Assembly (NCBI RefSeq): GCF_003387475.1
Contig: NZ_QUNO01000011.1
Location: forward strand, 248,001 to 312,000
DNA length: 64,000 bases
Direction of reading: 5' to 3'
Source of the DNA: Kutzneria buriramensis
Lineage (GTDB): Bacteria; Actinomycetota; Actinomycetes; Mycobacteriales; Pseudonocardiaceae
Shown: positions 27,086 to 28,529 of the stretch, one piece after another
How the letters are laid out: each line of letters starts with the position of its first letter
Position numbering within the stretch: the stretch's first letter is position 1
Notes under the pieces: model-generated
What the model saw: the letters and a program-made list of their open reading frames with translations, nothing else
The model's database searches: none
What the model was told of the DNA's origin: nothing
Made by a program: the position numbers and the translations under genes

Positions 27086-27111
27086 TTGACTGTGACACGC
27101 GTCACGACCGA

Positions 27112-27149
27112 ACGGCGGTGTCACTCCCCCACGAGGGTGACACCGCCGT
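27112..27149. other. Strong inverted repeat
   Basis: Arms ACGGCGGTGTCAC (27112-27124) and GTGACACCGCCGT (27137-27149) pair perfectly over 13 bp around a 12-base loop. It lies between the hydrolase promoter and the 3' end of the repeat-protein gene and may be a second terminator for the latter. Confidence 0.5.
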
Positions 27150-27221
27150 CCGAGCATGCCTCGACGGCTGCCACGGCGAGTGGTCTGCCTCTGTGACCGT
27201 GGTGGCTGCCAAGGCGAATGC

Positions 27222-27252
27222 CGGTGCCGCCGGTGTGGCACCGGCGGCACCG
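27222..27252 (-). terminator. Terminator of the Asn/Gly-rich protein gene
   Basis: Perfect 14-bp arms CGGTGCCGCCGGTG (27222-27235) and CACCGGCGGCACCG (27239-27252) with a three-base loop. It starts eight bases after the stop codon. Confidence 0.75.
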
Positions 27253-27259
27253 CCCCGAC

Positions 27260-28267
27260 CTAGTGGTTGCCCACGCCGCCGGAGTTGCCGCCGCCGACCG
27301 TGTTCCCGGAACCGCCGTTGCTGTTGCCGTTGCCGCCGTTGTTGTTGTCGCCGATGTTGTTGCCGTTGCCGCCCACGTTGCCGCTGCCGGCGTTGTTGCC
27401 CGAGCCGCCGTTGGTGTTGCCCGGCCACCAGTCACGCGGCAGCGTCAGCGACCGCGCCCGCGAGATCGCCGGCGGCGGCGTGACGCGGTAGCGGTGGTTG
27501 CCGATCCCGCCGGAGTTGCCGCCGCCCACGGTGTTCCCGGAACCGCCGTTGCTGTTGCCGTTGCCGCCGTTGTTGTTGTTCCCGATGTTGTTGCCGTTGC
27601 CGCCCACGTTGCCGTTGCCGGCGTTGTTGCCGCCCCCGGAGTTGATGTTGCCCGGGCCGGCGTCGAGGCTGCGACCCAGGTACGGGTTCTCCGGCAGGGT
27701 GACGGGGTCCCCGCCGCCGTTGCCCGCGCCGCCGCTGTTGCCGCCGCCCACGGTGTTGCCGGAGCCGCCGTTGCTGTTGCCGTTGCCGCCGTTGTTCGCG
27801 GAACCGATGTTGTTCCCGTTGCCGCCGGTGTTGCCGTGACCGGCGTTGTTACCCGCGCCGCCGTTGGTGTTGCCGGGCCCGGTCGCCGGCACGTCCGGGC
27901 CGCGGAGGAAGTCGGAGAAGGGGACCGAGGCCGCCTGGGCGAGCCGGGTCAGGCCGTTGTGCGCGCCGCCGGAGTTGCCGCCGCCGACCGTGTTGCCGGA
28001 GCCGCCGTTGCTGTTGCCGTTGCCGCCGTTGTTGTCGTCGCCGATGTTGTTGCCGTTGCCGCCGACATTGCCCTGGCCGGCGTTGTTGCCGTTCCCGCCG
28101 TTCGTGTTGCCGGTCGGCACCACGTTCTGGCTGAGGACATTCACGTTGGAAACGAGTGGCTGTTGGAAAAGGGGGTTGTCCGACGGTGCTGCCGCCGCGA
28201 ATGCCGGTGCCCCGATGACCAGCATTCCGGTAGCGGTCACCGCCACGACAAGTGCCTTCTTGGCCAC
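27260..28267 (-). CDS. Secreted Asn/Gly-rich four-repeat protein
   Basis: 335 residues from GTG 28267, with GGAGAG five bases upstream. Residues 1-25 form a signal peptide (MAKKALVVAV...APAFA). Four 51-residue repeats follow at residues 54-104, 133-183, 207-257 and 284-334. Each contains GGNGNNIG, NNGGNGNSNGGSGNTVGG and GNSGG and is made almost only of Gly, Asn, Ser and Thr. The linkers are 23-28 residues, hydrophobic/aromatic and Pro-containing (for example VPFSDFLRGPDVP, ENPYLGRSL, LPRDWWPG), and a PG or TG precedes each repeat. There are no cysteines. The composition suggests an exported structural, possibly beta-solenoid or amyloid-forming, surface protein. The N-terminal VSNVNVLSQNVVP faintly recalls chaplin/rodlin segments. 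I do not recognise the family. Confidence 0.85.
   Translation of the reverse strand: MAKKALVVAVTATGMLVIGAPAFAAAAPSDNPLFQQPLVSNVNVLSQNVVPTGNTNGGNGNNAGQGNVGGNGNNIGDDNNGGNGNSNGGSGNTVGGGNSGGAHNGLTRLAQAASVPFSDFLRGPDVPATGPGNTNGGAGNNAGHGNTGGNGNNIGSANNGGNGNSNGGSGNTVGGGNSGGAGNGGGDPVTLPENPYLGRSLDAGPGNINSGGGNNAGNGNVGGNGNNIGNNNNGGNGNSNGGSGNTVGGGNSGGIGNHRYRVTPPPAISRARSLTLPRDWWPGNTNGGSGNNAGSGNVGGNGNNIGDNNNGGNGNSNGGSGNTVGGGNSGGVGNH
27266..28108 (-). repeat. Four near-identical 153-bp coding repeats
   Basis: Copies at 27956-28108, 27719-27871, 27497-27649 and 27266-27418 encode the four Asn/Gly repeats. Conservation extends to synonymous positions, which points to recent duplication or gene conversion. Such blocks favour slippage and copy-number change, and short-read assembly may misplace them. 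Confidence 0.9.
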
Positions 28268-28529
28268 GGTCTCTCCTTTTTGATCTTGTATTGTGCGCCG
28301 ATCTCCGCGGGCGGAAGTGCGCCCCCTCCAGCCCGCGGTGCCCCTCGGCCCGACCGAGGCTAGCTGTCGGATCGGTGTGAACCCCGGCCGTTGGCTCGTT
28401 CGGGTGGACCGCAATTCGGTAATTGCTGTCCCTCGCTCGTGGCGATTCGCTAGGCCGAATGGGTAAAAGTGCAAGTGAGGGCGTCGGGTGGAATACCCGG
28501 CCGGGGGACAATGATCGTCCCGCGCTGAT

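Follow-up and report, generated by a model that had tools for sequence, protein, structure and literature searches.

A family of exported Asn/Gly repeat proteins in Pseudonocardiaceae, with a four-unit form in Kutzneria

The window analysed here, a stretch of 64,000 nucleotides from the 11.97 Mb genome of Kutzneria buriramensis (65 contigs), encodes a member of a real, undescribed family of exported Asn/Gly repeat proteins, whose four-unit form was seen only in Kutzneria. The constrained part of this protein is the Asn/Gly unit, whereas the linkers between the units drift near-neutrally. The reading that we tentatively favour, on sequence grounds and a little short of an even chance, is that of an exported, unanchored and hydrated structural polymer, which would self-associate at the hyphal, perhaps sporangial, surface or in its matrix. 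The first-pass annotation had placed the gene correctly at 27260..28267, without its strand (minus), and had called the protein undescribed, in agreement with our searches of Pfam (at E up to 10), NCBIfam, PHROGs and the PDB, which gave no match, and with a literature search that found no description of the Asn/Gly-unit family. It missed the single-unit relatives, the period of 6 and 12 residues and the position-specific signatures of the units.

The open reading frame runs from 28267 to 27260 on the minus strand and encodes 335 amino acids, from a GTG start codon at 28267, preceded by the ribosome-binding site AAGGAGAGAC, to a TAG stop at 27260-27262. The signal peptide that had been claimed is borne out by a signal-like N-terminus (residues 1 to about 26, 28190..28267, with cleavage near AFA-AAAP), judged by eye, as for the neighbouring proteins. 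After an N-terminal mature segment (residues 27-53, 28109..28189) come the four units of 51 residues, at exactly the residues annotated: unit 1 (54-104, 27956..28108), unit 2 (133-183, 27719..27871), which carries a position-specific GSANN signature, unit 3 (207-257, 27497..27649) and unit 4 (284-334, 27266..27418). They are separated by linkers of 28, 23 and 26 residues, namely linker 1 (105-132, 27872..27955), linker 2 (184-206, 27650..27718), which contains RSL, and linker 3 (258-283, 27419..27496), which contains RSL and WW. The units are indeed near-identical, with 43-46 of 51 residues and 126-138 of 153 bases equal in the six pairs, and Tandem Repeats Finder describes the gene as 3.7 copies of a period of 231 with a score of 834. 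Also as annotated, TG precedes unit 1, PG precedes units 2-4 and cysteines are absent; beyond residue 25 there is no Cys, Lys or Met, and a search of the protein for sortase-like words (LPxTG and two variants) found none.

The units and the linkers differ strongly in composition. The 204 residues of the units are 41% Gly and 34% Asn, with a GRAVY of -1.17, three acidic residues and neither basic residues nor F/W/Y; the linkers carry Pro, aromatics and Arg, their 77 residues including 17% Pro, six F/W/Y and eight basic residues. The abundance of Asn is not a low-GC drift, since AAC is the codon in 72 of 74 cases within a gene of 70% GC. Phased from residue 57, unit 1 reads GGNGNN-AGQGNV-GGNGNN-IGDDNN-GGNGNS-NGGSGN-TVGGGN-SGGAHN. 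Of 5000 shuffles, 3-40 reached the self-identity of the four units at lag 12 and 23-75 that at lag 6, while lags 3, 5 and 10 showed no excess over shuffles; in three single-unit relatives, lag 6 was reached by 2-30 of 5000 shuffles and the weaker lag 12 by 44-133.

Selection separates the two parts of the repeat region as well. Pooled over the ten pairs of five Kutzneria orthologues, one of which (G005) entered by its second part only, the Nei-Gojobori dN/dS was 0.29 for the units and 0.81 for the linkers, with values of 0.37 in the N-terminal segment and 0.42 in the signal peptide; these figures are rough, the pairs being non-independent, the alignment of the linkers uncertain and one sequence coming from a frameshifted gene, but the contrast is large. 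The proposal that linkers bind a partner while the repeats serve as a scaffold is thus not supported: that the linkers drift while the units are conserved speaks against specific binding sites in the linkers.

The genus group comprised seven genomes, our own included (G000-G006). Four other Kutzneria genomes have a four-unit orthologue at this locus, frameshifted in one case, so that the intact gene is found in our own and three others (G000, G001, G004 and G006). In G005, four units are preceded by a frameshift near the signal peptide, possibly a sequencing error, because the glycosyltransferase gene next to folP (L074, 10789-12628) is not called as one frame there either. G002 keeps a one-unit remnant of 100 amino acids, and no match to the repeat protein was obtained in G003 (4.7 Mb, 210 contigs). 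Our own genome has no convincing paralogue, the other match having an E of 0.04 and an internal stop. The GSANN signature of unit 2 is common to the five four-unit orthologues compared, and, with a mean identity of 0.898 over 40 pairs, units at the same position in different species resemble each other more than do those of a single protein (0.840 over 30 pairs); the four units therefore seem older than the species split, without ongoing homogenisation. A profile search of a contig collection returned three Kutzneria loci only (Kutzneria sp. CA-103260, Kutzneria sp. 744 and K. viridogrisea DSM 43850), and it was insensitive, since it left unfound the single-unit relatives present in whole genomes.

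These relatives are secreted proteins found at another locus in three other Pseudonocardiaceae genera (g8, g21 and g22). With profile A3 at E up to 1e-4 and at most 16 candidates scored per genome, 27 of 297 Pseudonocardiaceae genomes matched, of which 12 did so through the signal-peptide half of A3. By matched range and translation, 14 of the 297 were assigned the unit: six Kutzneria, including the G002 remnant and the frameshifted G005, and eight genomes of the three other genera, including G261, where the signal peptide is no longer readable; G193 (g8) holds a damaged single-unit copy. The seven single-unit proteins measured have 104-115 residues, with a DVLDTxLV-like segment between the signal-like N-terminus and the single unit. 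In this unit, 33-37 of 49-50 residues are common to the window protein and one relative from each of the three genera. The window protein shares the two features of the family in alignment A3 and in the family search, a signal-like N-terminus and a unit of 48-51 residues. Two single-unit relatives gave only Pfam and NCBIfam hits far below the cut-off (TrAA12, NEAT_IsdX2 and an oxidoreductase model).

The single-unit genes lie not beside folP but beside a gene that we take, from its start, to be glycogen phosphorylase-like. In genera g8 and g22 they also adjoin the gene of a small, Pro/Leu-rich secreted protein (L067:10378-10953 and equivalents), of which the one copy scanned had no Pfam match. 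A simple gene caller was run on the folP loci of 30 further genomes of the family, including three with a single-unit gene elsewhere, and in the 1.5 kb upstream it found no gene for an Asn-rich secreted protein. The simplest history suggested by these sequences is an expansion from one Asn/Gly unit to four in Kutzneria, where the gene has a different locus.

As to the secretion island of the first-pass annotation, the repeat gene is followed on its low-coordinate side by genes for an S15/PepX-type hydrolase and two PF00082 proteases, its three nearest neighbours there, all with signal-like N-termini by eye, whereas the other side holds a pterin-binding enzyme (folP-like) and a glycosyltransferase. 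By blastp, each of the five other Kutzneria loci retrieved has a counterpart of the hydrolase, of both proteases and of the folP-like gene; four also have one of the glycosyltransferase, which was not called in G005. The terminator also proposed is borne out in part: two very stable hairpins follow the stop, one directly 3' of it (27205..27262, minus strand, -39.5 kcal/mol, z -4.87), a possible terminator without a T-run, and one between the repeat gene and the S15-type hydrolase gene (27095..27160, minus strand, -43.5 kcal/mol, z -4.75), but a scan for T-run terminators downstream of the gene found none.

Upstream, a block running from GTATTCC to ACCCATTCG (28456..28496, minus strand) lies in a divergent intergenic region and could also belong to the folP-like gene. 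Both of its ends were found in all five Kutzneria upstream regions searched, with look-alikes of the block upstream of the g8 single-unit genes. Taken as words, GTATTCC stands upstream of five of five Kutzneria and six of seven single-unit genes, and ACCCATTYG of five of five and four of seven; neither occurs in the 500 bases upstream of folP in 30 other loci. In alignments of 15 upstream pairs, the best score was reached by 9 of 200 shuffles, and an invariant-word test on four Kutzneria and five g8 sequences gave one shared 7-mer (P 0.044). These shared promoter words, chosen after the fact, may weakly link the Kutzneria and the single-unit genes.

The annotation had suggested a profile search of the unit among actinobacteria; beyond the genus, this brought out the three other genera. 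With 12 candidates scored per genome, a depth at which misses are possible, one of 394 genomes matched class-wide, our own, and 11 of 397 order-wide, our own and ten weak matches, none of whose ten translations held a GGNGN unit; neither search yielded a unit-bearing genome outside Kutzneria. Plasmid and phage collections gave no match to the window protein.

A wider superfamily was considered and rejected. Seven weak hits (G034, L029, L050, L052, L054, L055 and L061) were compared, with three profiles, to 50 shuffles each that left the first 24 residues unshuffled; this control covered six of the 12 genomes matching by the signal half (G029, G034, G035, G119, G208 and G239), L029 coming from a separate search. 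Scored against the mature part alone, none of the seven beat its own best shuffle, the closest being G034 at 5.5 bits (one shuffle at 7.8, the next at 2.3). With the full profile, three beat all shuffles (G034, 37.5 against 30.8; L054, 28.7 against 23.9; L055, 28.8 against 26.1) and four failed to do so. We read the weak hits as signal-peptide matches, leaving G034 aside. The G034 protein (L078:9363-9662), Asn-rich, secreted and 99 amino acids long, is encoded close to folP and oriented like the window gene; the similarity of its mature part is not significant, while its full-profile score exceeds all 50 shuffles. Separately, L050, L052, L054, L061, L122 and L124-L128 form a group of exported-looking proteins of about 80-105 amino acids; each has two cysteines, and most share an [IV]NVDDVL motif. 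Scans of L050, L054 and L061 against Pfam and NCBIfam gave no match.

Besides the structural polymer, which is the likeliest, the readings as an amyloid-like fibre, a polyprotein and a non-functional expansion remain. Each unit might be a small beta-solenoid or cross-beta stack, with 6 or 12 residues per rung and an Asn ladder, assembling into amyloid-like fibres with a chaplin- or rodlin-like role, which we regard as rather unlikely. The 6/12-residue period of the four units, the 6-residue period of the three single-unit relatives and the Asn-rich, charge-poor composition are in its favour, and in a study on rodlins, the replacement of Glu/Asp of RdlA by Ser/Gln/Asn in RdlB was seen by the authors as favouring beta-sheet (PMC5314377). 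Against it, AlphaFold returned a mean pLDDT of 31 for the whole protein (4 sequences), a low confidence that neither shows nor excludes a fold, and of 48 for a module of 78 residues (16 sequences), where the linker end reached 67 and 57 in the first two ten-residue blocks and the unit 39-44. The only strands predicted in the whole-protein model (residues 8-11 and 14-17) fall inside the signal peptide, each unit has few aliphatic residues, curlin patterns and the chaplin model have no hit and the hexapeptide [LIV]Gxx[STAV] has one. The low pLDDT may reflect true disorder or shallow alignments, so these models neither support nor exclude a beta-solenoid or amyloid.

That the sequence is a non-functional low-complexity expansion kept by chance appears improbable: decay in several genomes and the presence of the unit in only 14 of 297 family genomes would suit it, but the dN/dS of the units, the intact four-unit frame in our own and three other genomes and the conserved upstream DNA, though the divergent folP-like gene shares this region, all speak against it. 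We give quite a low probability to a polyprotein from which extracellular cuts in the linkers, made perhaps by the proteases encoded nearby, would release four active single-unit peptides. Stand-alone single-unit relatives, near-neutral linkers and the adjacent genes for an S15/PepX-type hydrolase and two PF00082 proteases, with counterparts in five other Kutzneria loci, agree with such processing; yet no one cleavage motif runs across the linkers (RSL is in two of three), the position-specific differences between units are kept and the single-unit genes have no protease-like neighbour, as judged by first residues, with one small protein scanned against the library. Least probable is a water-, ice- or Ca-binding protein or a Gly-triplet (polyglycine-II-like) bundle, none of which is backed by a PDB match. 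GGNGNN does resemble the RTX word GGxGxD, with Asn, Ser or Thr for Asp, but the RTX pattern has no hit and the GG words are spaced by 12, 12 and 7 rather than 9 (by eye); likewise, Gly looks unequally shared among the three triplet phases (7-8, 9-10 and 3-4 of 17 positions per unit), but at lag 3 all four units have a self-identity below the mean of their shuffles.

The structural polymer draws together the signal-like N-terminus, conserved neutral units with a 6/12 period and under purifying selection, fast-evolving Pro/aromatic linkers and single-unit kin; the absence of a sortase-like word and of a Pfam domain and the 6-residue period common to three single-unit relatives also point to it. 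The units would form extended, strongly hydrated chains, which would pair side by side through regular hydrogen bonds of Asn side chains and backbone, while the hydrophobic N-terminal segment and the linkers would serve as hinges or stickers, loose and tolerant of sequence change. With four units in place of one, the valency would rise and so favour the formation of a gel or coat. Of the hyphal-surface or matrix protein first proposed, the exported-looking, undescribed character and the plausibility of a surface or matrix material stand, and a binding role of the linkers is not supported. The gene is often decayed or missing (the G002 remnant, the G005 frameshift, the damaged G193 and G261, no match in G003, the unit in 14 of 297 genomes), which makes it dispensable and is odd for a main coat protein. 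Kutzneria forms sporangia, according to PMC13279889; a link of the repeat protein to them is speculation, and a literature search on sporangium matrix proteins, worded for Actinoplanes, found no paper. As a long shot, the protein could be a new kind of biomaterial that makes up the sporangial matrix or envelope: an exported polymer built on Asn ladders and periodic in hexapeptides or dodecapeptides, whose single unit became four early in this sporangium-forming genus. In any case, this family, whose window member lies outside Pfam, NCBIfam and PHROGs, offers a natural expansion from one to four units in which selection keeps the low-complexity units and not the linkers. If the protein builds a surface or sporangial matrix, it would be a compact system in which to test how gels or fibres depend on the number of Asn/Gly repeats, and a candidate component of the sporangium in Kutzneria.

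Among known systems, chaplins and rodlins are exported coat proteins of filamentous actinomycetes, and the window protein may be compared to them in function. The chaplin link that had been evoked is not upheld: the ChpA-C model (PF03777) has no hit on the repeat protein, and the three PF03777 matches of our own genome all lie at another locus. There (L121:3685-7125, contig C4), an exported-looking protein of 1146 amino acids has repeated chaplin-like PF03777 stretches (whole-protein E 2.6e-20), and long frames with PF03777 matches also occur in the other five Kutzneria genomes searched. PE_PGRS and PPE-MPTR proteins, from the same order of bacteria, have Gly/Asn-rich repeats too. The MPTR word NxGxGNxG occurs four times in the window protein, which differs from them in having no GGxGG word, no PE or PPE domain hit in Pfam at E up to 10 and a period at lags 6 and 12 rather than 3, 5 or 10. 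Curlin (Sx5QxGxxNxA) and RTX (the nonapeptide GGxGxDx[LIVFYM]) share with it repeated Asn/Gly-rich motifs, their own patterns having no hits in it. The closest likeness is to the single-unit relatives, which have the same signal-like N-terminus, short mature segment, Asn/Gly unit and 6-residue period, and which differ by their single unit and by their locus.
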